Below are positions 1 through 37,552 of a stretch of DNA of 64,000 bases, piece after piece. The stretch covers positions 1,257,202 through 1,321,201 of the forward strand of contig MU270020.1 in NCBI GenBank assembly GCA_021432635.1. Direction: 5' to 3'. The notes under the pieces are model-generated. The model was not told the origin of the DNA. It saw only the letters and a program-made list of their open reading frames with translations, and did not search any database. Source of the DNA: Thozetella sp. PMI_491 (Eukaryota; Ascomycota; Sordariomycetes; Chaetosphaeriales; Chaetosphaeriaceae). The translations under genes were made by a program, and so were the position numbers. How positions within the stretch are numbered: the stretch's first letter is position 1; each line of letters begins with the position of its first letter.

Positions 1-3000
1 CAATGTGCTTGACTGCCTCGACGTGACCGCCGCGGACAGCTAGGTGCAGAGGTGTAAACCCATTGTTGTTTTCCTCTCCCACCACCTCAGATTCTGCCTC
101 AACGATCAGTTTAACGATTTCTGCGTTGCCGTTCAATGCTGCGAGATGCAGGGGGACATTGCCGTCATCGTCCTCAATCTTTGTAACCTTTTTGTTCTCT
201 GCCTGGCCTGCCTGGCTTTCCAGCTCAAGAAGTCGGGAGACAACTGCCTTGTGGACTCCCCTTGCCGCAAGGTGCAATGGCGTAGACCCGCCCCCGTCTT
301 TGCCCGCAAGAAGCCTGAATATCTGTGCGTTCCCTCTGCTGATTTGTTTGTTATCTTTGGGAAATAGCAAGTTCAGTATATCTATGCGACCAGCCTTGGC
401 AGCAAGATGCACTGACGTGCCATCCGAAATGCTGAGAGCGCCAATGTCGTCACTTTCTTTCAGGAGCAACTTGATTGCCCCCGGCTGCTGCCACCCGCAG
501 GCGAGGTGTAGCGGCGTCCATCCACGTTCCGTGATGGAATCGATTGAAGCTTTCTTTTCAATGAGCGTCTCGACAATCTTGGTGTGACCGAACTGGCAGG
601 CAAGATGCAGAGGTGCCATGCCGTCCGGTCCAGGTACGTTGACGTCGGTCCCGAGCTCAAGAAGTTTCTTCACGGCATCCAGATGGCCACTTTCGCATGC
701 CTGGTGGATCGGGTGCCAACCCGGAAGGATGTGTTCAGGATATCCTGGGAGCAACGGCCAGACATTGCTGCGCCCAAATGATGCCGCAATGAGTGAGGCG
801 CACGGGCTGCTGGCCCCAGCATCCACCAGCCGTTGAACGATAGATGAATCGCCTCGTGCAATGGCTGCTTCGAGGGCGGCCTCTCGGTCTGGCGACTCTG
901 GAGAATCTTCTAGCAAGGCATTTATAAGCTGCTCGCCCCCAACTTCAGCTGCGATAACAAGTGCTTTGTCTGAGGAGCCCCGCAGCTTTGGATGCTGGCT
1001 ATTCCAGTACAGCGATGCCCAGTTCTGAATCAATGCCTGATCTCGGAAGAAGTGACTCAAGAGATGCCGATCGGATTCCAGTTTGCCACAATGCACGTGC
1101 CAGAACTGTACTGCGTAGTCGACTAAGCCGTAGCCGAGGTCTGAGGATGCCAGAGCTTGCGATGTGACGAGACGGAGGTAGTTGAGGCATACTTGCGCAA
1201 TGACCGTGTCGCCATCTCTCCAGATCAAGCCACTCTGTGGATCCAGGAGGAAGCCGTGCGACGGCGCGATCAGGGCCTCGCGAATCGACGCATGGAGGAA
1301 GTGAGTATGCCCGTTTTCGACGCGGACCATTGAGCCGAGAAAGCCCTCAATCTCGGCGGCCAGGTTGCCAGACATGTTACTCTTGAGATCATGAATAGAC
1401 TCTGTGTCGATTTCCAGTACCAGAGCCATTTCTATCTCGGCCAGCGTGAGAGGGCGGCAAGACCACACCATCCAGGACAGCACCTTCCGGGACCAAGACC
1501 AGCGTTCCAGGGGGATCTGGCCCACCATCGCCAAGTAAATGCCTTCAAGCATATTCGGGGTGGCCTCTAGTTTTGCTTCGATATACGATCTTGCTGACCA
1601 GCTTGGGAGCCTCCCGATACTCTCTAAAATGAGCGTCGTTGCGAGGTTGGGCAACTGGCCCCCATCCCCTTGTCGAACCATCCCAATAGTCCGTCGTAGA
1701 GTCGTGTTTAGCTCTTCCCTAGCACTCTTGATTGCCTGGTTATCCTGGCCAAGCCTCGAGATTCCAAGCTCGGAGGCTTTTGCTAAATCGCTATCTCTGC
1801 TCCTGAGAGCCACGTTGTCCAGGTCCAAGGCGGCCAAAGGCGGAGGTTCATCAGTCTTCTTCCCGCTCGTGGTGACGATTCGCACAAAAGAGGCCTCATC
1901 GGATACCCAGTCGAGGATGTCGTTCAGAAAGGGCTGGTTTGAGGCCTCACACTGATCAATCGCTCCAATTAAGCATATCGCTTGCTTGTGGCTGTTACAG
2001 CCGACTAAAGTGCGAAGCAAAGTCCACATTGACTCTACTCTCCAATCCGATTTCTTAATCATTCGAGAGAAGAAGAGTGAGATGTGGTCGAATAGCGGTG
2101 GCTCCATACATAGCAGTTGGAAAGCAAGCGAGGAGAGCATTGCTAGCAACGAACTCTGGTGAACGTCTCTGCTATCGAATAGGAAGCTAACGACTCTCGT
2201 TCCAGGGGAGCTTGGCCCTATGCGAAGGAAGTCTTCTGGGAAAGGAAGGTCCAGAGTCGATATGCCATAGACCGAAAAGTAGCCAGTAGACATTTTCAAC
2301 CATTCCTCGTATGGCTTGTATGATTGCAGCCAATACAATAGTCGTGGCTTATAATTGAATGATTGACCTTGTGTTCTGCCAAACTCGGAAAGCGTCCGCA
2401 GGCAGTCGAAGTAAGCTGCTTCGTAGTCTAATAATGGAAGGTTAGCCTTCGCTAGAGGACGGGATGAGTGGAATATCAACATACTGCTTGAGCGATTTAT
2501 ATGCTCGCAAATCGTATCAAATTCTAGGCCTCCAGCATCGGAAAAACACCCAAGCTCGACGTGGGTCTTCACTCGCTTCCCGATAGTTTCATTTGCCGTC
2601 TCGAATGTTGCCGAAGACTTTGGAACTACCTACCTGCCATAAGCAACCGGCACGGATGCCAATGGAGCCCAATGGAGCAATGTTTGGTTAAGAGGAGACG
2701 CACAGGTGGCAGGAGAGTATCCTGGAAAATGCTCATTGTATTGAATATGGGCTCAATGCTGCTGAAGGCATCGCTGGCTTCTTTCAAAGCCTGGGAGGAG
2801 GTCTCGATAACCTCAGAGAGGTTGCCAATATACTCTTCCCCGCTCGCGAATATCAACCCACAAGCTATTCGCTCCCAGCCGTCCTGATTCGGCGCCCGAT
2901 GCGGAGTGCCAAAAAAGACCTGGCGGCAGTTTTATTAGCGAAGTATCGTAATCATAGATTCGTTAAGTGCGCATACTAGGAACGAGGTTCTGGCTGCCAA

Positions 3001-3605
3001 CTGGCAGTACTCTTCCATCTGAATTGCCAGAACTAAAGCCTAGTGGAGTATTCCATTAGCATTATAAGGCTCAATAAGTGGTGTAAGAGCAAATGGCATT
3101 GTACCTGCTTGATTATCACGCCGCCCAGGTCATGACCAATGAATACTAGTTTACGGTTCTATCAGCCGGTCTCATTAGCTCCCGGGACAATGGGGTATAA
3201 CTCGAGTCCTCACCTCAGGGGACTGCTCCTCGGCAAGCTTTTTTAACAAGGCCAGGGCTGTGTTTCTGATGCCCAGCGTGGAGATTCCCTGCCGGCCGAG
3301 GAACCGATAGTTGAAGCTCATAACGCGCGCAGAACCGATACGGCTGGGCAACAAATCCTCAAGCCACCTGATCTTGTCCCCTTCTCGCTTCCAGGACATC
3401 TCATTACCACCCCAGCGGTGGACAGCGACCACGCTATAATAAAATATGAGTATTGCGTGTCTCTGAAAGATTCGTAAAGTGGAGAGGCATCTATCGCAAA
3501 GCTTCGGGTGAAGCCACAGTGGAGGACTCACTCGTACTCCCGAGGATTGGTTCCGCCATCTGTGAGATCTTTCAATGGAAACAGTTTCACACTTTCTTCC
3601 GCCAT
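1..3605 (-). CDS. NLR-like protein: alpha/beta-hydrolase, NACHT-like core, ankyrin repeats (C-terminus outside window)
   Basis: Probable intracellular STAND/NLR-type receptor. A six-exon model closes in phase: 3605-3532, 3433-3214, 3158-3105, 3039-2977, 2919-2704, 2629-1, giving about 1085 residues before the window edge. The N-terminal lipase-like alpha/beta-hydrolase domain shows GHDLGG near residue 106 and FFGTPH near 139. Residues 210-480 are NACHT-like, with a Walker-B-like stretch LIGAIDQCE near 425. A winged-helix-like region holds YAVQFWHVHC. At least seven ankyrin units with PLHLA-type cores run from about residue 780 to the edge. The Walker A loop expected near residue 322 is not recognisable (YGISTLDLPF sits there). 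The nucleophile elbow has Asp in place of Ser, a variant I recall from fungal NLR hydrolase domains. The start ATG at 3605 is inferred. Family assignment is firm; nucleotide-dependent activity is doubtful. Confidence 0.85.
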
Positions 3606-4016
3606 AATCGCATGAGGATCAAGATCTATGGGCGTTGCAACTGAGTTCGCAGCGGCGAAGTGGTAGCCAACTCTAAAAGTCCGACTCTATCCCAAAGCTG
3701 ACTCTCGCGGATGGAAACAGGAGATGGCTTGAGACCTCCCGTGCTAGCAAGATTTAGATTAAGCGACAGGTACTTTTTTTTCTGTTAACGAGGCTACGGC
3801 CAAATTGTTTGCAGGCTGCGGGATAATAATTGGCGCTGCGTAAGACGCCACCGTCTCCCAATCTAGGTTGGCGGTTGTTCAGCTCGACTATACCCCCGGC
3901 TTCATTGGGTGACCAGCAGCACTGCTGATGCATTGCTATGAAACAATAGAGCCGAAGCAAAATACCGTAAATGGCACCTGGGGGTGAGGCGATAGAATTC
4001 CGCGCTGGGCGGAGCC
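3606..4016. promoter_or_regulatory. Divergent intergenic region
   Basis: This 411 bp stretch separates the NLR-like gene (leftward) from the unknown gene at 4017 (rightward), so it should carry both promoters. I see no TATA box, repeat or small gene that I can support. Confidence 0.5.
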
Positions 4017-5558
4017 TTGTCGGACACGTTAAAAACAACTCGTTTGGTGCCAGAGACGATTGTCCTCGCCGGCTCTACACTGCCTCTTATCATTGTGCTT
4101 CCCAGATCGCATGCAATCATGGAGCTTCTAAGCAAACCCGAACCGATCGAGCTCGACCTGGAAGAGTGGGTGCCTGGTGGTGCCTGGGTTAGATCTCGAG
4201 CGAATGAAGAGGTTGGTCGGGTGGATAGGAGCAACTACAAGTCCATCTTCTATATCATCCATGAAGTGCACGGAAAGTTCGACGCTGCCGAGCTAGCTGA
4301 TGACAACGCTAGCCTTCTTGTCTTCCAGATTGAGAACAAGGCCGACGATCCATACGCCCATTTCCTCCGCTTGAAAGTCACCCTGAAGTGCGCAAGAGTC
4401 AAGCCATCCGATGAGGCTCCATTCTTCTATGCCGCCGACCCTGCCTTGCGAGGAGAACAGGTACTGGAAAGCTTCATCATCAATAGGTCCAAGTCTTTTA
4501 CTACGGGCGCTTCCGTGAACGTCCAGGGAAGCAGTTTCGTCTCGGGAAGTACCAATGTGTCCAGCACAACGGCGGACAGCTACGAAGTCCGCGAGAGACA
4601 CACCATTTCTGCTCGTATCGAGAAGAGTAGTGCGAGAGCGGTGGCCCGTGACACCTCCTGGTGGGAACTCAAAGCAGCTCCTCATCCTGGGCAGGGAATT
4701 GGAGACTACCTCACGGTGGCTGTTGTCGTAAAGCGGGGAATGGGACAGCAATTCACCATCACGGCCGAGGTTGAGGCGGAGCTAAGCAACTTGTCGGACA
4801 AATTCCGCCGGATAAACCCCTTTCATAGGAAGACCAAGGCTGTTATGCTCGGCACCTACGGCCCAAAGCCGACAACTAACCAGGCCGTTCCAGACGGGGT
4901 GGACCAGAACAGCCTGAAAGATTCTACGGAGTCCCCTGAGGTCGTTAGAAAGAACCTCCAAGTTGGTGTGCATCTTCCCGAGATGGAACCACCTCTGGTC
5001 ACTTCCGGTAAGATATCTTACGTCGTATTAGCCTGAACTTACTAACCAAGGAGCAAAGATGGTCCGTCAGACGCCCTGAAGCCGCAGGGCCAGCACTCAG
5101 AACAGACCCCACCCTCTGGTGGAACTTCTGTGCAGCAGCAGACTATGACGACGTTTACAGAGAGAGCCGTGGTCAAGGAACCTAGTAAAGCTCCTCCTAG
5201 TCCACATGAGACTTTAGAGAGCGAGTTTGCTATGGAGAAGGCCGCTCCTCCGGCTCATGATGCGGTCTCTGGGACTACAAATATGCCCAAAACTCGCCCC
5301 ATCATCGTGGACAATCGGTATCCGGCAAAGAGTCCTCTCGATCGACGACCTATAGAACTTCCGGCTAACAGTCCACCTGCCAGCCCGGCACGGCCCGTGC
5401 CGTCGAATGCTAGAGCAGACCGCCACCTAAAGATGGCTGTGCTGTATCAGAGGCTTGCGCAGCTGCACACGGAGGAAGCTATGGAAATGCTCGGCCAGCA
5501 TGCTACGAGCTATGCTGATGAGGTCGAGAGCACTAGATGGGTGCCTCGCCAAATGTAA
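4017..5558 (+). CDS. Unrecognised 496-residue protein, upstream partner of an ankyrin-subtilase
   Basis: Two exons, 4017-5007 and 5059-5558, joined by a GTAAGA...AAAG intron of 51 bp; the phase closes and gives 496 residues. I do not recognise the family. Residues 60-280 look beta-rich and globular, with alternating hydrophobic strands and a Ser/Thr/Gly/Val segment near 160-185 (TTGASVNVQGSSFVSGSTNV). From about 290 the protein is Pro/Ser/Thr/Gln-rich and probably disordered; it ends in a short helix-forming segment (AVLYQRLAQLHTEEAMEML). There is no clear signal peptide, though residues 15-30 are hydrophobic. It lies 473 bp upstream of a same-strand ankyrin-S8 protease and divergent from an NLR-like gene, which hints at a shared pathway. 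A pore-forming or other effector role is only a hypothesis. An internal ATG at 4119 would remove the first 34 residues. Confidence 0.7.
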
Positions 5559-6031
5559 ATGAGTTTGGTTGCAACTTTGTGCGTATGGTGCTCCTCTCGC
5601 CAGAGGTGCCTCGGACGCTGGCCATGATGAACACGAGGCTGTGGAAGAAGCAATTTCAGCCCCTCACTTGAGATTTTGTTAACCCACACCCGTCGTAGCA
5701 GTAGCAGTAGGACTCTGGCGGAGCTATCAACGCCACTATCCTAATTGAGATATCAGCCCACGCACCTATAGAAACCTGCAGAAGTGGCTAACTCAGAGTG
5801 GTACCGCTGTTGCCGCTCATTTCGTCCTGTAGACCTATCACATTTTTTTTGTCAAGCTGACATCCTGGAGCCTCGGCGACAAATCCTGGACCAACCTCTG
5901 GGGTAAGGGGAAGGGCTCGGGAGACCGGCTGTAACACGGAGCGAGCCTTGTCTTGCGCGTCTGTCGAATGCTCTCTTTGTCTCTGAACATTCATTAGATA
6001 TCCCAACAAACGCTGTTGAGATAGATGTGGT
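5559..6031. other. Intergenic region between the unknown gene and the subtilase
   Basis: 473 bp holding the 3' flank of the upstream gene and presumably the promoter of the ankyrin-subtilase. No coding frame, RNA gene or repeat that I can support. Confidence 0.5.
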
Positions 6032-9000
6032 ATGCCGATGACAACTACTGTTCACAACGTCGGCGCTTCTACAATGGTTTTAGTTGAGGAACCGAAGTTA
6101 GGCCTGAGACCTACAAAAACAGGTCTTGGCAAGGTCCAATCAGGAGCAAGGAAGATAAAGACCGCCGTGATCAAGAAACGCGAGATGCCAGCAGCAACCG
6201 GTCGTGGACAGATGGAGTGTGGGAAAAATTCCACGCGGCGGCAGACAACAAGAAGGCGCTCGATGATCTGGAGGCCGAGCTGGACGCGTACGACCCAGTC
6301 CATCAATTTGTCATCGACAAGGCAAACTCGGCGTTCTGGAAACGTGACAGCCGGAAGGCACGAGAGCTTCTTCTCTGGATGCTGCAGACAGAGAGAGAAT
6401 GGTTCAAGCGTAAGGCGACCGCCAACGACTCCAAGTTCGGGGGCAAGAAACCGCTGCACCTAGCAATAGAAAAGAAGAACATGGACTTCCTGGAATGCTA
6501 TCTCCGTCAATGCAACGATCCCTCTGCCGGGTCGGCGAAGTCAAAGGCAATCAAGGCACTCGAGGAGAAAGACGGGGACCAGCAGTCAAACTGCCTGCAT
6601 GCAGCTATACGGGAAAAGCTCGTGCCCCACGCCGCCGAAATGATCAGTCTCTGCTCAGAGGCAACTCTGACAGACACTGACCGCAACAGGCAGACACCTT
6701 TCCATACAGCCATCAAGGAATCCGACCCGGCCAATGGCCACCAGCTTTTCAACAAGGTGCTGGAGGCGATGGAGGCACGAGATATAAAGCTGAAAAGCCA
6801 GCAAAAGGCTAAGAAGGAGAATAAGGAGGATCAACAAAAGGAGAAGGAGGAGGCCCAGGGAGGTCTGCTCTCGAGGCTGCTCATGCACACTGACAAGGAC
6901 GGCAAGTCGCCTTACCTAGAAAGTTTCCAACGTCTGCAAAGACTGAAAGACGAGCACGAGCGGGCCAAGAAGAGAACATTCGCCTTCGGTGACGGCTCGG
7001 TATCGAAAGAGACGGCATCGCGCAATGTAAAAAGTGAAGAGGACCTCTTGAAGCGTCTAAACGACATCATCTACCAGACCTTCGAAGTCACTCGCATCCT
7101 GGACCTCAGCAGAGCCCTGTACGGAACCCAAGGTCAGATTGTCCCCACAGCGAACATCTACACCCATTCTTGGAGTTTACTAACACCTGTCATGTAGGAT
7201 CTGGTACGGACAATGCGATCTGGAATACAGCCATGGTTTCTGAGCAGCACTAACGAATATCTAGAGAAGGACCTCTGCCTGGATATGTCTGACTTCAACC
7301 AGTCTTCGTACAACTTCCGCAACTTTGTTCGACGCTTTACCAATCTCGATCCAACAACCGACCCTGAGGTGTCCGATGAGACTGCAGCCAAGGGAGTCAG
7401 ACTAAAACTGTTCGAGGAGAAGCTCTTCTATGTGACGCTACCCAATCTCAACAGCATCCGGAAGCCATGCCCCCACGAGGGCGTTCGCACTTTGTTTTGG
7501 TGGCTGCATCACTGCCAAAACGTAAACTGGATTAAGACACTGACGATACCCGATAGCACTACAAGCCCCATGAGTGACGAGCTGCTATCTGAGGCCGTGA
7601 TGCAAAAGTTCCAGATCGAGGAGTTTGACTGGCGCAAACTGGACATAAGCCTCGACATCTTGACCGAGTCTCCTCATGCGGCGCATTTCAGGACAATCAC
7701 GCTCTACTCCAGCGGAAACTGGAGCACGATGTATCACTGGATCCTTTCCAATGACGGCTTGGCAAAACTACCAAATGTGAGTACGGCGCAGGTGATACGA
7801 CCGCCTCAACGAGTCGGCTGACCAGCTCATCCGTAGGTTTCCAAAGTCAACTTGCGTATCGTCCACCTGAATCCTTCAGAGGTAACACCCGCCACTCTAT
7901 CCATAGAATAAGTATCAGTCATTACGACTAATAGATAAGCAAGGGAGTGCACGATAAAAAGGCTCGCGACCACCACGACTACCGCGTGATTGATTTTGAG
8001 ACACAGCTCAAAAGTCGTCTTCTAGAGCTGAAAACAGCAGAACTCCAAAAGAGAGAAGAATATCCAACCCAGAAGAAACTCAACTTTCTTTATCAGCTGG
8101 ATATCGACCCAGCAGCCAAGTGGGAGTTTCCAGTCCTCAAGTATAACCAGGATAACGAGCTCCACGTGCCCAAGTCTGAATCCCGATCCGCTCTTAGCAT
8201 AAGTGTTTCCGGAGTGCTAACAAAGGCTTCAGAGTGCAATTCATCGACCAGCTCGTATACTGCCAGAACTACATAGATACCTTCAGACAGCTCAACGACA
8301 AGGATGATGACATCGTCCGGCGCTTCAAGGAAATCGCCCTCGAACCAAAGGCTGGGGCGGAGGACAAGCGCATCAAGGTAGCCATCATTGACAATGGAGT
8401 GGACAAGCTCGAGGACCGGATAAAGGAACAGATTGCTAAAGGAATCTCCTATGTCACTGCCGACGGAGGCAGTAGTCATCGCATGCTGCCTTGGTGGATG
8501 GTGGCAGACCCCCACGGCACCCATATGGCCTCCTTGGTCGCCCAGGCGAATCCATACTGTCGCCTTTATATCGCCCGGGTGGGCAAAGGTCGCAAGGATA
8601 TCTTGACTGAGCATGCCGTGAAGGTAAGCCTCCCGTGGCGAATCTGCCGCCCTTTCCTTAACCCAGTCGGATTTGGGCTGATTTCGCGTGTACAAAGGCC
8701 ATCCAGTGGGCGATGGAGCAGGGGGTCGACATCATCTCCATCAGCTGGACAACCAAGAAAGAGGACGAAAAGCTCAAAGAAGAGATCAAAAAGGCGGTGA
8801 GTGGCAGTGGCCCAAGCGGGAAGCGCGCGCTGGTCTTTTGCTCGGTGGCGGACGAGGGAAATTACAGCGGGGACATCTTCCCCGTGCAATGGCACAAGGA
8901 CGACATCCTCAGCGTAGCTGCAACGGATACTTACGGCCACCTGACGCCAGCATCGAAGCGCGCCGGCGGCGAGGTCAGCATCCAGGTGCCGGGCGAATCC

Positions 9001-9477
9001 ATCGCTGCCGAAGGCCCCTCATACCGCGATGCCGATAGCTCCAAGACCAATTTGGACGGGAGCACGCCGGTATCAGGCTCCTCGGTGGCTACAGCGCTGG
9101 CTGCAGGAGTACGTCGTCCTATAATCCTTTCCTGCTCCTCTACTGGGCTATTGGGCCATGGTGATCTTCAATGCGAGGAGTTCAGAGCCGAGCGGCATGC
9201 TCTGATACGATGGTTCAAGCGCTTCGTCCGGTCATTTAAAAGTGATGCACGCTGACTCCCCGTTTCCGAACAGATCGCATCGCTAGCCTTGGTAATGCTT
9301 CATACCTACAATGATTTGACGAAAGTCGAGTGGGAGGATCTGCACAAAAAGTCGGGAATGAAGAAAGTGTTTGACAAGATGCAGGGACAGGAAATGGGCA
9401 TCCAACTTCGCAAGCTCTTCCCCACCGAATTCAAGGATGAGGACATTGCTAGCCTCTGGAATAAGGCAAGCTTTTAA
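6032..9477 (+). CDS. Ankyrin-like / subtilisin-family (S8) serine protease
   Basis: Predicted cytoplasmic serine endopeptidase of about 976 residues. The model joins exons ending or starting near 6096/6144, 7140/7198, 7776/7837, 7881/7935, 8173/8233, 8623/8698 and 9108/9274, ending at TAA 9477. The N-terminal 350 residues are helical with ankyrin-type units (KKPLHLAIEKKNMDFLECYL, CLHAAI, RQTPFHTAI). The C-terminal half is the S8 catalytic domain: Asp in KVAIIDNGVD (codon at 8390), His in DPHGTHMASLV (about 8513) and Ser in SGSSVATALAAG (about 9090). All three catalytic residues are present. There is no signal peptide. The first 45 residues and the donors at 6097 (GTTAGG) and 7141 (GTCCCC) are the weakest parts of the model. 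Ankyrin-S8 proteins in fungi are linked to regulated cell death and incompatibility; that role here is inference from family and context. Confidence 0.85.
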
Positions 9478-14610: not shown

Positions 14611-15276
14611 GTCGGCGTGATGTGCAATTCGACTTGCACTAACCTCACCTTTCTCTAGCCACTAACGTCCTCTCCTGGCCCGAGAAAGTCGAGCCTAGAC
14701 GTTGGGCTTGGGGACTGGATATTCTAAGAGTAAGCGGGCGTATGCTCCCGTCAAATTGAACACCAATGACACAAGATGTGCTGCCTCCCAGCAAGGAGGT
14801 AATATTTCTCTGCAGGACTTCTTATTTCGATGTCGCGATGTGTCCTTCTGGTCTGTAGGTGTCTTGATCACTGTTGATGGGGACATCTAGAGCTCTAGGA
14901 GCCTGCCACTAGCACCAAATGTAGGTCTTCTCCCCCTGGTATTGAGCCCTGGTAGGTACTATTGGTTCATGGTTGAGGCGTGACTTGCCTAAATGGGCAT
15001 ACCGGAGCGACCCCCCACTTCCGCTAATGCTTACGGCCACGCTTCCGACTTGCCTTTAGCTGTTTCAAAGTCGGCCCACACATGAGGAGTCGATCACCAC
15101 AGTCAACTTCACGACCCGACGGAGTCAAATATCTTCAGAACGCAACGTGTATCTCATTTATTAGAGGAATAATCTTGCCAGGCTTGAATCCACTGGATAA
15201 AACCCAAGGAGCATTGCTAGCTGTGCGTTCCGACGTTATCTCAGGAGCCTTCCTTGCGTCCACCTTCTACCATCCC
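14611..15276. promoter_or_regulatory. Divergent promoter region of ABC transporter and carboxypeptidase 1
   Basis: 666 bp between the start of the leftward ABC gene (14610) and the rightward S10 peptidase (15277). Upstream in-frame codons extend the peptidase frame to 15082, but the signal peptide begins at the ATG at 15277. No other supported feature. Confidence 0.5.
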
Positions 15277-16907
15277 ATGATGGTTGCGATCCTGTCTCTA
15301 TGGCTAGTACCGGCTCTTTTAGCATCAGCTGGCGTTGCATCCCCTAGATACCGAAATATTTCGTCCAAGTATAATGCTTCCAACCGGATTCGCGTCAAAA
15401 CCCACGATGCGAACCGTGTCTGCCAAGGAGGAGTCACCAGCCATACAGGCTGGACGGACGCCGGAGACCATCACATGTTTTTCTGTAAGTTTCGTCCAAT
15501 TTTGCGGTCCCTTGAATGGGGATGCGCCTCTTATCCACTTAATCCACTAACGGGATTCCAAGGGTATTTTGAGGCGCGGAATCCCAAGCCAGACACCCCA
15601 GTGATGGTCTGGTTCACCGGTGGTCCAGGCGGCTCAAGTGTTGCGTCTGCATTTGTCGAAAATGGAGATTGCCTGTATGACCCGACGGCAAATAAGGCTA
15701 CGTTTAACCCCTACGCCTGGACAGAAGAGTTTCACATGGTCTATCTCGACCAACCAGTCGGCGTGGGACTCTCTTACATCAAGAATGCATCCGATGTCTC
15801 TGCCCATCCCGCCTCGGCCGATGATAGCGCCCCAGATGTGATTGCATTCATACGTTTGTTTGGCGAAGCCTTTCCCCACCTCGCTGATCGACCTCTTCAC
15901 CTCGCCGGGGAGTCATACGGCGGTCGATGGATCCCTGTCTACGGAAGCTGGATCCAGCAATACAATCACATAGTCGACCGCGAGGACCGGATTCCTCTCG
16001 CGTCTCTCATCGCCATCAGCGCATGGACACATCCAGCAATACAGGTGCCTTCGATGTACGACGTCGCCTGCCATCCTTTTAAGCAGTTCCCTCCTACTCT
16101 CAATTCTTCCATCTGCGAGTCCATGGCCGCTGCCTACCAGTCGTGCGAGCTGCTTCTGCACGCATGTCAAACCACCGACGACATGCTCGCCTGCGTCCGC
16201 GCCGGCGAGTACTGCAACAAGCATTTCAACGACGTGATTGAGGGAGAGACAACTAACAGATTTGATCGTCGCATGGTTTGCCCTGAGCCAGGTCACTGCT
16301 ACCCTGTCATGACGGAGATGTCGGCCTGGATAAACTCGGAGCCCATATTCAAAGACCTTCTCGAAGTGCTAGAGCAGTCAAACGGACAGAAAACAACCTA
16401 CTCGTTTATGAGCGATCTGATATCGTCCAGATTTGTCGAGAGCGGCGATATATCAAAGGACACGATTCCATACGTGGAGAATGTACTCCGCACTAGGAAG
16501 ATACCCATGCTCTTTACTACTAGCGATGCCGATATATTGGTCAACCCTAAGGGTCTACGGGAATCACTTGAGAAGGTAAGATGGCCGGGTCGCCCCTACT
16601 TCCGAGGAGCTCCATGGGATGAGCTACCGTTCAGGACCGCATCCGGGGGCTCTGGTGGCGTATTGCGCAGGAGCGACTTTCTCTGGTACGCTGAGCTCGC
16701 CGAAGCGGGTCACATGGTAAGTTCCCTAGTCTTACCTCTCCGGATCAGACTGCTGACTGCACAATGTGATAGTCACCTTATGATCAGCGCGCCGGCATGC
16801 TTGAGCTGATGCGGATCTGGCTCCGACATGTCACTGCAGATGACAAGACCCCGAGGCCCTTGCCAGAGCTTGTGGATCAAATACCTCTGATAAATGAAGA
16901 TCTTTAA
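15277..16907 (+). CDS. Secreted serine carboxypeptidase 1 (peptidase S10)
   Basis: Exopeptidase that removes C-terminal residues from peptides at acid pH. Exons 15277-15484, 15563-16716 and 16773-16907 give 498 residues, the normal S10 length. The start was chosen because the ATG at 15277 begins a hydrophobic signal peptide (AILSLWLVPALLASAGVAS). Catalytic Ser lies in AGESYGG, Asp in TTSDADILVN and His in AEAGHM at the last splice junction. The substrate-binding motif appears as TGGPGGSS. Several Cys residues in residues 270-330 fit the family's disulfides. It is the first of three S10 genes within 12 kb, and the three are clearly different in sequence, so they are not a recent tandem duplication. 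Confidence 0.93.
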
Positions 16908-17784
16908 TTGTCACGCAGAATTAGTCCGGCTCAGGGAAGAAGAATGGGAGGCTTCTTATTCCCGAGTGACATGCATGTTATGGAACCATAGGTACTGCAC
17001 GAGGCATATGTCCTCGCGGATAATTAAATACAGAAAACGAAGTGGCCCCGTTGCTGGCCCTACTGTCTTTGGCTGGAGAATCATGTACAATATCGATATC
17101 GAATAAATGCCCGATGACTTTTGACACAAGCTGCACAATCCTTAACTATAAACAACCAACTCCGCTAGATTCAAAATTCCTATTGCGTGTCTAAGCGACC
17201 CAAACTCCCATGAGTTGCTGCAATATCTTGTCACTCTATCAGGAAAGTTCGCCCCTAACAGGAGCCTGAATGCCTTGCGTTGGAGAGAAGAGCATAGTAG
17301 GTGATGCTTGCGCTCATTCTATTGGGTCCCTGTACTCATTCCTTATCTCGGAGGAGAGGGTGTTCCTCCCTCGGTTACAGATGAAGCACTAGTACCTGAA
17401 CTCAGGTCCTTGCCTACAAGTAGATGCCTGACTAGCATGGGTTTGGTTTAACACCCAGTTTAGACGGCGTCAGGTAACCCCAAATGTAGCGCCGACAGAC
17501 CATTCCTATCTCGCTCCAAAATAACGATAGTTTTTTCGGTGTCCCAATTGGCCGGTCGCTCTTATTCTCCCATTTAGGAATGGTTTGCCGATGACCAAGC
17601 TACGCCGCGGACACCCATGCAATCTAACACGCTATCCCAACCAAGAGGTGGGGTCAACTATGATACATTTGTCGCCCTCTCTCGGACCATGATATCAAAT
17701 TAGGTGCCTTTAAAGCACACTCTCACCGATAAGCTGTCAGTTTTGCGCTCTGTCTAATTACTTATCGTCTCAGTATCTGGCGGA
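16908..17784. other. Intergenic region between carboxypeptidases 1 and 2
   Basis: 877 bp with the 3' flank of carboxypeptidase 1 and the promoter of carboxypeptidase 2. A/T-rich in parts; no coding frame or repeat that I can support. Confidence 0.5.
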
Positions 17785-19395
17785 ATGATACGAAGCCAAT
17801 GGTTGCTTGCTTTGCAAGCGTTGTCCCTGGCGCATCTATCACACCAGCGCCGTCTTGGGGTAGACGATGGGTGGGATGTAGTTGAAGGCGACGGCTTCTC
17901 CGTTCGTACCCGAGATACACCTCCGGAGATCTGCGCCGGCGAGCCCGGGGTCTCTGGTTATGTTGATTGGGGCAATTAAGCACAGCCTTTCCCTTGCAAC
18001 CGTCGCGGCGTCCGAGAACATAGCGTCTAACCAATCTTACAGACAACAACCACATGTTCTTCTGGGTCTTTGAGAGTCGCAATGATCCATCCAGGGACCC
18101 TGTGATTCTCTGGCTTACCGGGTAAGCTACCTAGGTAGACCTATATAATATGTTTGGCCAAGGCGCTGTGCTAACTCACCGATCACAACAGCGGGCCTGG
18201 AGCTTCCAGCATTGCCTTCGGAGCGCTAGACGAACTTGGACCTTGCGTTTCTCGTGAAACAGATGACGAAACAGGTGGCCTCGTCCATAATCCTTACTCA
18301 TGGAATTCGAATGCAACAGTGATATTTGTGGACCAGCCACTCGACGTGGGATACTCATACGGAAAACGTCGTGTTCGCAACCTTGAAGAAGCCATCAATG
18401 ATCTCTACGCCTTCTTGGATCGACTGTTCATTGCGAAGCCGGAATGGGGCGAGCGAGACTTCTACGTAGCCGGCGAAAGCTACGGAGGCAGCTGGGTGCC
18501 TGCCATTGCCGCCCGCATCCAACGCATGCGCACTTCGCCACTGGCCCGTGTGGCTGCGAGTGTGACTGCTCGGCGCCCAGAAAGTTCCATTAACTTAAAG
18601 GGAATCCTAGTGGGCAACGGGCTTCTCAACCAAGCAGTTCAGCGGCGCGGCTTCTACGAAATGGGCTGCACTGGCTCGACAACCATTCTCAGCGCCTCCG
18701 TTTGCACACAGATCGCCGAAGCAGGCCCGCGGTGCGAGCTCCTCGAAGCGGCCTGTGAGGCAAGTGGATTTGACAGGAGCGTCTGCGATGTCTCGGACAA
18801 GTGGTGCCAGGCCAACGGGTGGTTTCCGATCAGACAAACGCCCTGGTTCCCCTACGACGTCCGCATCAACTGCACCGCGACACCTGAAAAATGCGTTAGT
18901 CCTCCGCCCGGCATCGTTAGCTGGTTAGATGATCCGGTTGTCCGCGAAGGGCTTGGAATCGACGCAGGCTTTGGCACAGCGCATCCTTCGAGTCGTACTA
19001 TATTCGAAGACTTCACAGCGAGCGGTGAGGTGGGCTACCCTTCCCATCCATGGGTGACGGAGCTTCTCGATGCCGGAGTGCGCGTGCTCATCTACGCCGG
19101 GAACAAGGACTGGCTATGCTCCTCTCCGGGAATGCTCCACTTCGTGGACAGTCTCGAGTGGCATGGTCACGCGCAATTCCGTGCGAAGACGCCCCAGCCA
19201 GTTCACGCTCCCGCTTCCACAAACAAGGGCGTTACTTTGGGAGGTGGCTCCACCGAAAGGACCCTTTGGGGGCATCACAAGAGTCATTCGCTGCTCAGCT
19301 TCATGGAGATTGAAGAAGCAGGGCATCTTGTTCCCAAGGACCAGCCGGAGGTTGCCTTGGCGATGCTGAACTACTGGATTGCGGGGGAGCTATAA
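17785..19395 (+). CDS. Secreted serine carboxypeptidase 2 (peptidase S10)
   Basis: Starts at ATG 17785 with a short hydrophobic leader ([14 protein letters not shown]). An early exon encodes [13 protein letters not shown], the next [14 protein letters not shown], and the main exon the rest. The second intron runs from GTAAGC near 18122 to ACAACAG near 18191. The first donor is uncertain: a GC donor (TGGG|GCAATT) gives the best homology, [13 protein letters not shown], while GTTATG slightly upstream is the GT alternative. Catalytic Ser in AGESYGG, Asp in YAGNKDWLC and His in [12 protein letters not shown] are all present, as is GGPGASS. Many Cys in residues 200-300 match the family. Predicted secreted or vacuolar carboxypeptidase; with neighbours 1 and 3 it fits an external peptide-degradation locus. 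Confidence 0.9.
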
Positions 19396-25124: not shown

Positions 25125-26799
25125 TCACCAGCCCCTGAGCCATCTCTCAAGAATGGCTCCCGTTGCAGCGCCGGCGTGCCTCGGGGCTTCATGGCCTGCT
25201 CCATCGACTCCTACTAGCACCAGCTTTGCGTCCGAGGTCTGTTTCCAGAACCCCGAGCCCGGAAATGGCTCATTTCCAAGACTGCTCTCCGGCTTGTATC
25301 CCCAATTAGTCCACCGCGACGACCTGAAATCGGCTTGGCCGCTCCACCTAAGATTGTCGAAGGCATAGATCTGTCCTGGAGTGTTGACAATATAATCCTC
25401 GTTACCATTCAGGACTAACACCTTGATGTCCGCCCTAGCCTTGTTTCTACCCGAATCGAGGATATAACTCAATGGAGGAGCCATGGGGAGCAGATTCGAG
25501 CGCGTGGTAAGGTAGCCTTGGTTTAATTCGTAGTTCACTAGCTGGAAGTGAAAAGAGCTGTCGAATCCCAGAGCGGATAGAACCCGCTTTTGATTGATAA
25601 ATGTGGACTGGTTGCCGACCCCCTCTTCCCAGCAAAAGGGAAGATTAGTGCAAGGCAGATGGACTTGAACATTTCGTGTTAGATATATAGAAGCAGCATG
25701 AAAAAAGGGAGTATGACGGCCGCTACATAGCACGAACACTTACTATTGTAAGGGCTCTTGCGGCCGGCTATCTGCTCCGCGTTGTAATGTTTACCAACGT
25801 TGATGTAGCAGTATTCGAAGGCGGTTCGGCACACCTCGCCGTCTTCGGTCTCCCGACACAGATCTCCAAGTTTCGCACACTCCGGCATGACGGTGGCCAT
25901 TTCTCCACAAACGGTAGAGTTAAATATATGACCGCGGAGGTCCGTACACAAAAGGTCATAGGAGCCCAGAAAAGTGTACACAGAGTCGGTCAGAGCATTG
26001 ACTAGTATGGCCGATGTAATGTTCCCCCAGAACGCGTTCCTGGAGTTGTGGTCTCGCGATACGAGTATGTGATGCAGATACTTTGGCACATAATGGCCCC
26101 CGTAAGACTCTCCGGCGATATGAATTGTGTGGTTTGAGTATTGCCTGAAGATTTCCCCGAAGAAGACGTTGAGGAAATACTGGAAGTCGATTGCGCCTTC
26201 CTCGTCCGTGTCTGGCCACTGTCGGTTGGGTGCAACAGTAGCGAGACCAGTACCTGCAGGCTGGTCCAGGAAAAGAACGGAGGCGTTATTGTTCCAGCTA
26301 TACGGGTTCGGCTTCGTGTGGGTGCTGCTCGGGTGTAGTGTGCAAGGGCCTATTTCTGTCAGCAGACCCATCATTGAGGAACCCCCAGGGCCGCTGCAAA
26401 GTCTTCGGTGAGTACAAAACCAGGCTTTAGGCGAAGTCATTTCTGCGAGGCTTACCCATTCATCCAGATGATCAAAGGATCGGTTTCTGGATTGCCTCGG
26501 CTCTCAAAGAACCAGTAAAACAAGCGCTTATCCGAAGAAACGTCGACGGTGCCAGTCCATTGCTTCTCTCCGTACGTCTCGCATACATCTCCTGCCTGCT
26601 CCCGAACGGTAAAACTGCCAGTCTTGAAGTCGGCCTGGTCAGAAGGGTGGTCCGATGGGAGGGCTGGACTGTCAAAAAGCATCCCGTCAAGGACCGCTTG
26701 AGGGCGTTTGGGCGAGCCGGCATCGAGAATAGCCTGGATATATCGAGCATGGCAGGCCGAGACACTCAGCCCAACAGCTAGAGCCGCTAAAACATGCAT
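25125..26799 (-). CDS. Secreted serine carboxypeptidase 3 (peptidase S10)
   Basis: Three exons (26799-26456, 26393-25744, 25663-25125) give 510 residues. An ATG 23 codons upstream (26868) is in frame, but the one at 26799 places the signal peptide ([16 protein letters not shown]) at the N-terminus, so I chose it. Catalytic Ser in [13 protein letters not shown], Asp in [12 protein letters not shown] and His in [10 protein letters not shown]. The oxyanion and substrate loop is NGGPGGSS across the first splice junction. The His motif differs from the usual AGHMVP, which suggests altered specificity near the active site. It faces the OPT transporter, tail to tail. Probably secreted or vacuolar. 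Confidence 0.92.
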
Positions 26800-36677: not shown

Positions 36678-37552
36678 ATGGCCTCCAAGCTTCTTCTTGC
36701 CGCTCTCCTCCTCGCCCCCGGCATCCTGGGACGCGCCCTCCCAGGCGAGCACAATGGTGCCGTGGCCGCTGCTCGAGATGTTGCTATGGTACTTAGTCCT
36801 CATAACGACAAGTGTGAATATATCGACTAAAATCTCTCTAGGCAGATGTCGTCGCTATGGTTGCGGCCCGCCAGACTGGCGAGCTCCCACCCCCTCCGGA
36901 AGGCAACGGAACCGAGACCGGCAAGCACAAGGGTAAGGGTAAGGGTAAGGGCACGGGTGTTGGGAAGGGGAAGGGCAAGGGTAAAGGCAAGGGCGATGGG
37001 TCCGACGCCCCGGCCCAGCCCGCCCAGCCCGCCCAACCTACCCAGCCCGCCCAGCCTGCTCAGCCCGATCTGGAGGCCCGTCAGACCGACGATCCCGAGG
37101 ACGATGATGACGAAGATGTGACTGCCGCTCCCGAGGCCAAGGGAAAGAAGGGCAAGAAGGGCAAGGGAAAGGGTAAAGGCAAGGGCAAGGGCAAGGGCAA
37201 GGGTAAGGGAAAGGGCAAGGAGGACAAGCCCGAGAAGCGTCAGGAGCAGGAGGAGGATGACGAGGATGTCGACGGCGCCGAGGACGTGAACGCCACTCCC
37301 GAGGCCAAGGGAAAGAAGGGCAAGAAGGGCAAGGGAAAGGGGAAAGGAAAGGGAAAGGGCAAGGGTAAGGGAAAGGGCAAGGAGGACAAGCCCGAGAAGC
37401 GTCAGGAGCAGGAGGAAGATGACGAGGATGTCGACGACGCCGAGGACGTGAACGCCACTCCCGAGGCCAAGGGAAAGAAGGGCAAGAAGGGCAAGGGTAA
37501 GGGGAAAGGCAAGGGAAAGGGTAAGGGCAAGGGCAAGGGCAAGGCGGAGTGA
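36678..37552 (+). CDS. Secreted Lys-Gly repeat protein with Kex2-type sites
   Basis: Exons 36678-36788 and 36842-37552 give 273 residues. The N-terminus is a clear signal peptide (LLLAALLLAPGILGRA). A short propeptide-like part and a Pro/Gln-Ala repeat (AQPAQPAQPTQPAQPAQP) follow. The C-terminal 140 residues are about two and a half tandem units. Each unit joins an acidic block (EDDEDV), the spacer NATPEAKGKKGKKGK and a long run of alternating Lys-Gly. Units 1 and 2 end in EDKPEKR, and Lys-Arg is a Kex2 cleavage signal. The protein should therefore be secreted and could be cut into polycationic fragments. I recognise no family. It could be a wall-associated or nucleic-acid-binding protein, an antimicrobial precursor, or a Kex2-processed repeat protein. 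Confidence 0.8.
37133..37552 (+). repeat. In-gene tandem repeat, about 165 bp unit
   Basis: Units beginning at GAGGCCAAGGGAAAGAAGGG start at 37133, 37301 and 37463, spaced 168 and 162 bp. Units 1 and 2 are nearly identical through the acidic block. The difference in spacing lies in the AAGGGC-type Lys-Gly run, which is itself a 6 bp microsatellite and likely to vary in length between strains. Confidence 0.9.

Follow-up and report, generated by a model that had tools for sequence, protein, structure and literature searches.

Genes at the locus

The window, a stretch of 64,000 nucleotides from Thozetella sp. PMI_491, lies on contig C6 of one 72.3-Mb assembly (G000), and every count given below refers to this single genome. 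By eye, its introns and genes resemble those of a filamentous ascomycete. Of the three genes at the locus, the leftmost is NLR-like and on the minus strand; to its right follow, both on the plus strand, a beta-rich orphan and then an ankyrin-subtilase gene of the S8 type (Table 1).

Table 1. Features of the three genes, with positions in the window
Feature	Position	Strand	Basis
Ankyrin repeats, NLR-like gene	2..790	-	Ank_2, 161.6 bits; repeats continue past the window edge
NACHT-like part, NLR-like gene	1865..2206	-	NPHP3_N, 49.5 bits (cut-off 24.8)
SesB-like (serine-esterase-like) N-terminal part, NLR-like gene	2629..3540	-	Exon borders by eye
Partner main exon	4119..5007	+	Open frame; alignment of the family; start codon suggested by relatives
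Partner conserved core	about 4269-4820	+	Within main exon
Partner intron	5008..5058	+	GTAAGA...CTAAC...AAAG, frame continuity
Partner last exon, Pro/Ser-rich tail with terminal helix-like stretch	5059..5558	+	Frame after splicing
Ankyrin-subtilase gene	6025..9477 (about)	+	Ank and Peptidase_S8 matches; model by eye
Protease 5' exon	6025-6029	+	Predicted
Protease 5' intron	6030-6101	+	Predicted
Protease ankyrin-like part	6454..6723	+	Ank_2, 20.4 bits, below cut-off (27.3)
S8 exon with catalytic Asp and His	8363..8622	+	Alignment
S8 exon with oxyanion Asp and catalytic Ser	8698..9108	+	Peptidase_S8 match, alignment
Protease last exon	9274..9477	+	Frame, AG acceptor, by eye

The middle gene, which we refer to as the partner of the protease, was described in a sequence-only reading of the window as an unrecognized 496-residue protein with a beta-rich N-terminal half, encoded upstream of the ankyrin-S8 gene. 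The gene and the layout are borne out, but the predicted length becomes 462 amino acids. The main exon falls in an open frame at 3996-5033 (+) whose first in-frame ATG is at 4119; the 496-residue version requires a TTG start at 4017 and is a frame artifact. We prefer the shorter protein because its relatives (described below) begin near ATG 4119 and no in-frame ATG precedes it. A model with one extra intron, starting at an ATG at 3971 and encoding 488 amino acids, is possible.

The partner family

Searches of Pfam, NCBIfam, PADLOC, and PDB sequences with the window partner gave nothing significant (best E 0.03 or worse), and no relative of it was found in the viral contigs searched. As a single query against its own genome it returns itself and one chance match (E 3.4). 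The impression of a true orphan stems from this single-sequence search and was abandoned when relatives were found beside paralogous S8 genes. The DNA upstream of five such genes, which are the best five matches to one S8 exon of the window and were chosen by S8 similarity alone, encodes a weakly similar protein in four cases (L047-L050, not L051). Leave-one-out profiles built from five or from six other members recover the window protein at E 2.5e-9 and E 1.8e-10, respectively, each among 7412 open frames, and a three-member profile recovers it weakly (0.0028). Because of the match at E 2.5e-9 and the presence of the same neighbors at five other loci, the layout seen in the window is more than chance.

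The family comprises at least seven genes: the window member on C6 and those at C5:351k, C19:767k, C20:543k, C84:155k, C87:188k, and C19:277k. This number is a lower bound, obtained from single-protein genome searches (with three partners found beside S8 genes and one later find as queries) and from profile searches of fetched loci. Family profiles fare no better, giving nothing significant in any of the four collections named above. Eight columns of the seven-member alignment are invariant (H, G, A, L, W, R, F, and P); the lack of Ser, Asp, Glu, and Cys among them speaks against an enzyme. The tails vary between members in length and make-up, and no conserved cut site could be shown in them. 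No S8 or CHAT place lies within 10 kb of the C87 member (L064:2847-4562), whose next exon carries a DUF6594 domain (62.2 bits). By eye, the DUF6594 sequence following this member looks membrane-spanning.

Linkage of the partner family to S8 proteases

Six of the seven members sit 2.5-3.7 kb from an S8 gene, a count that carries a discovery bias in that S8 loci were the source of four members and, of the two found by similarity only, one is near an S8 gene. Homologs that never neighbor proteases would argue against a module of this kind; those in the window's own genome adjoin an S8 gene in all cases except C87. The partner is on the 5' side of the protease at each of the six loci and no other gene was seen between the two, with a tandem arrangement at two loci and a divergent one at four.

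Genome-wide, there are 83 S8 places (merged by hand), six of which have a partner member within 10 kb. The 5' side was read at 13 S8 loci including the window, and the profile finds members at six of these; the remaining S8 places were covered by the single-protein genome searches. One locus, C5:1572k, contains an S8-like Asp/His exon and no partner in the 5 kb upstream. The fetched DNA there includes no Ser exon, and the neighboring text is ankyrin-like by eye with no Pfam match. With C5:1572k, which is outside the six module loci, counted as the single miss, a partner is present at 6/7 loci and at 0/16 of the DUF7580-S8 places discussed below (Fisher test, p 6.9e-5).

The protease and partner trees resemble each other (Mantel r 0.66; 12 of 720 relabelings give a value as high), with low internal support in the partner tree (22-58). 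Divergence between copies is large for both genes, amounting to 1.2-3.2 substitutions per site for the S8 domain and 1.6-4.8 for the partner.

The ankyrin-subtilase clade

The Ser exon of the window protease exceeds the Peptidase_S8 cut-off (38.6 bits), and the Asp/His exon by itself does not reach it (18.3). The catalytic triad of Asp, His, and Ser is complete in all six partner-bearing proteases, that of the window included. The protease had been called intact, and with respect to the triad this holds; for the gene as a whole, however, it depends on the predicted 5' intron (Table 1). Ankyrin repeats exceed a Pfam cut-off in four of the six module proteases and fall below it in those of the window and C5, and none of the six has a DUF7580 within 3 kb.

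In an unrooted tree of 18 hand-picked S8 domains (six partner-bearing, seven DUF7580-S8, and five others), the six partner-bearing proteases split from the rest with 100% bootstrap. Within this clade the proteases of the window and C5 form a group (97%), C5 being the locus that has an intact SesB region (see below). All six partner-bearing proteases (window, L033-L036, and L044) have Asp at the oxyanion position, and the 12 other S8 domains aligned all have Asn. Judging from this residue, the module proteases could have low or altered activity. Proprotein convertase 2 (PC2), which differs in being a secretory-pathway enzyme, is an active subtilase with Asp at the same position, so this substitution need not abolish activity.

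The NLR-like third gene

Six or more ankyrin stretches are present in the NLR-like gene of the window, together with an incomplete NACHT-like match that covers positions 49-163 of the 164 in NPHP3_N and lacks the first 48, the P-loop part. The front of the gene is an esterase-like region that we take to be of the SesB type, and such a region adjoins the partner member at all six module loci. The C5 copy has sub-threshold Pfam matches (Abhydrolase_6, DUF676, PGAP1), and the SesB-like pieces of the window that were scanned have no Pfam match. Starting from the C5 and C84 copies, a SesB profile carried through three iterations recovers the other four loci at E 1.6e-31 to 1.8e-5, values that include copies taken in during iteration; for three of these loci (window, C19:767k, and C19:277k) only 19-24 residues around the nucleophile are matched. 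In eight other fetched loci the same profile finds nothing better than 0.92. SesB-like matches are common in the genome (63), and one of them (C10, E 0.017) has a DUF7580-S8 place 2.6 kb away.

The nucleophile elbow, for which GxSxGG is expected, reads GHDLGG in the window, AHDIGG at C19:767k, AHNIGG at C20, CHDIGG at C84, GHDIGG at C19:277k, and AHSLGG at C5. The esterase Ser is thus replaced by Asp or Asn at five of the six module loci, the set in which this loss was counted, and is kept at C5. The Walker A motif (P-loop) is absent in the window, C19:767k, C20, and C84, the four Ser-less copies that were read, and is retained in the NACHT-like part of C5 as GRSGSGKS. NPHP3_N is above the cut-off in the window, C19:767k, and C5 and below it at C20 and C84. 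The domain order of esterase-like, NACHT-like, and ankyrin parts is that of the SesB-NACHT-ankyrin NLRs of ascomycetes, and C5 also keeps their Ser and P-loop; the window copy and three others differ from these NLRs in lacking both, and C19:277k in lacking the Ser. The third, NLR-like member in divergent orientation that had been proposed for the window is present, with the correction that it lacks Walker A and the esterase Ser. Because the stretches read stay open and the loci are far apart in sequence, the gene appears to be a maintained pseudo-receptor rather than a product of recent decay.

A module of protease, partner, and NLR-like third gene, as had been suggested for the window, accordingly recurs in the genome. 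An NLR-like protein whose esterase is mostly dead, a member of an undescribed beta-rich family, and a cytosolic ankyrin-subtilase occur together at six diverged loci.

Comparison with gasdermin/protease pairs

Fungal gasdermin genes are reported to cluster with S8 or CHAT proteases, and HET-Q2 to remove a short C-terminal piece from HET-Q1 (PMC10197012, PMC12881547, PMC10989679). About 60% of fungal gasdermin genes are stated to adjoin S8 proteases (PMC10197012, PMC10989679). The two Podospora anserina proteins were assumed in the sequence-only reading to be encoded side by side; as described in PMC12881547, het-Q1 and het-Q2 represent idiomorphs at a single locus and are not neighbors within a strain, and adjacency to gasdermin is reported for HET-Q2-like (Q2L) genes. 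The present module shares with the HET-Q1/HET-Q2 system and the Q2L clusters a repeat-bearing cytosolic subtilase beside a smaller beta-containing protein and a two-gene or three-gene layout, and its protease has the Q2L traits of a full Asp/His/Ser triad and a repeat region (of ankyrin, TPR, or WD40 type). It differs in that the partner has no detectable gasdermin similarity, the SesB-type NLR-like third gene is constant, and the protease clade has ankyrins and the oxyanion Asp. The NWD2/HET-S and PNT1/HELLP clusters also encode an NLR-type sensor beside an executioner but are described as signaling via amyloid templating, not a protease (PMC12881547).

The same genome contains gasdermin/protease pairs of a different composition. 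At C6:72k, the neighbor of a DUF7580-S8 gene (L069:2343-3215) matches the PDB entries for rcd-1-1 (E 9.8e-8) and HET-Q1 (0.0016), and on the basis of these matches we call it a gasdermin. As a genome query, it yields 18 gasdermin matches at E up to 1, of which 11 have E <= 0.004, and 12 of the 18 are within 10 kb of a DUF7580-S8 place. Conversely, there are sixteen S8 places with DUF7580 within 3 kb, and a gasdermin match occurs within 10 kb at 12 of these (eight at the stricter E) and a member of the new partner family at none. The partner family therefore occupies the place that gasdermin has in the known pairs. Both arrangements place an S8 protease with a sensor-like domain beside a presumed substrate; the DUF7580-S8 pairs differ in their S8 clade, their sensor domain, and their gasdermin partner. 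No gasdermin match is found near the window module. One of the six module loci, C19:273k, has a gasdermin match 6.3 kb away on its other side, toward a DUF7580-S8 place. The ankyrin-S8 module thus exists, occurs repeatedly, and stands largely apart from the gasdermin/protease pairs.

DUF7580 is not named in connection with gasdermin/protease pairs in the literature searched. Two gasdermin matches, at C7:519k (E 0.0013) and C77:180k (E 0.2), are beside DUF7580 and have no S8 place within 10 kb. Genes that by eye are C2H2-type zinc-finger-like are found beside the DUF7580-S8 genes of L066-L070 and L072.

Possible function of the module

We give almost an even chance to the view that the trio, as a module found repeatedly in this fungus, functions in the manner of the gasdermin/protease pairs but through a partner other than gasdermin. 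In such a module, the ankyrin and NLR-like parts would restrain the protease and sense a cue, with the pseudo-NLR possibly serving as lock or sensor. By analogy with the action of HET-Q2 on HET-Q1, the freed protease would cut the beta-protein in its flexible tail, and the released beta domain would act, most likely at a membrane, so that the cell is killed or sealed off in non-self recognition or defense. The partner would then be both a protease substrate and an executioner. Besides the linkage and the matching trees, the complete protease triads, the lack of invariant enzyme-type residues in the partner, and the DUF6594 domain after the C87 member favor this view. Weighing against it are the C87 member without a protease neighbor, the partner-free locus C5:1572k, the gasdermin match near C19:273k, the oxyanion Asp, and the abundance of SesB-like matches. 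A comparison of amphipathicity with shuffled sequences, made in search of a pore hairpin, likewise gives it no support: peaks were clearly above the null in two to three of the seven members and fell outside the glycine/serine-rich stretch in which a hairpin had been expected.

A gasdermin too diverged for sequence methods would have the same genomic role, a similar size, and a beta-rich composition, and adjacency to a protease gene, seen in 6/7 members here, is itself a gasdermin trait (reported for about 80%). Two AlphaFold predictions made without an alignment are too low in confidence (pLDDT 37.4 and 37.9) to weigh for or against a gasdermin fold. However, neither the window protein, one relative, nor two profiles retrieved a gasdermin from the PDB, and an hhalign comparison with the C6:72k gasdermin of the same genome gave a probability of 0.2 of 100 (E 0.36), whereas that gasdermin is itself recognized from a single sequence. 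The partner family also accompanies a different protease clade. We consider a hidden gasdermin quite unlikely. The suggestion that the protein might be a gasdermin is not upheld, as no sequence method used relates the partner to that family; its alternative, a new family of putative substrates, is the better of the two options.

The beta-protein could instead regulate the protease or the NLR-like protein, act as an adaptor for either, or be a guarded decoy of one of them, with the protease cutting something else. Constant adjacency and matching trees suit any binding partner, and tails that differ between members and share no demonstrable cut site fit such a role, but in the known fungal S8 pairs the substrate is reported to be the neighbor (PMC10197012, PMC10989679), and we regard this explanation as unlikely. 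It is improbable that the trio is a duplicated block of genes linked without a shared function: the single protease clade and the similar partner tree are what block duplication would produce, yet the copies are far apart in sequence and the strand arrangement has changed while the three genes have stayed adjacent. The least probable arrangement, which we find very doubtful, has the SesB-type esterase as the killer, the beta-protein as its inhibitor, and the protease as the destroyer of the beta-protein. SesB-like domains are linked to cell death in PMC9815663, and C5 keeps both the esterase Ser and the P-loop, but the change of Ser to Asp or Asn at 5/6 loci, including the window, argues against this arrangement.

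Building on the reading of the partner as a protease substrate, we tentatively propose, at somewhat below an even chance, that the module represents a second, gasdermin-independent system of protease-activated executioners beside gasdermin/DUF7580-S8, consisting of a beta-domain effector family, oxyanion-Asp ankyrin-subtilases, and a pseudo-NLR as a non-catalytic lock or sensor. The literature searched, which covers Clave et al. 2022 through reviews, assigns no partner to S8-ankyrin genes that lack a gasdermin; the recurrent partner described here would, if true, supply the target missing for a protease class, and the trio offers a two-protein cleavage test. The upkeep of a receptor-like gene that has neither esterase Ser nor P-loop would point to binding alone as the mode of action of some fungal NLR-like proteins.

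Other genes in the window

Three genes at 15082-19395 and 25125-26440, in one stretch, are serine carboxypeptidase-like by eye. An open frame at 36857-37552 contains long Lys/Gly (KGKGK) repeats and is probably low-complexity sequence.
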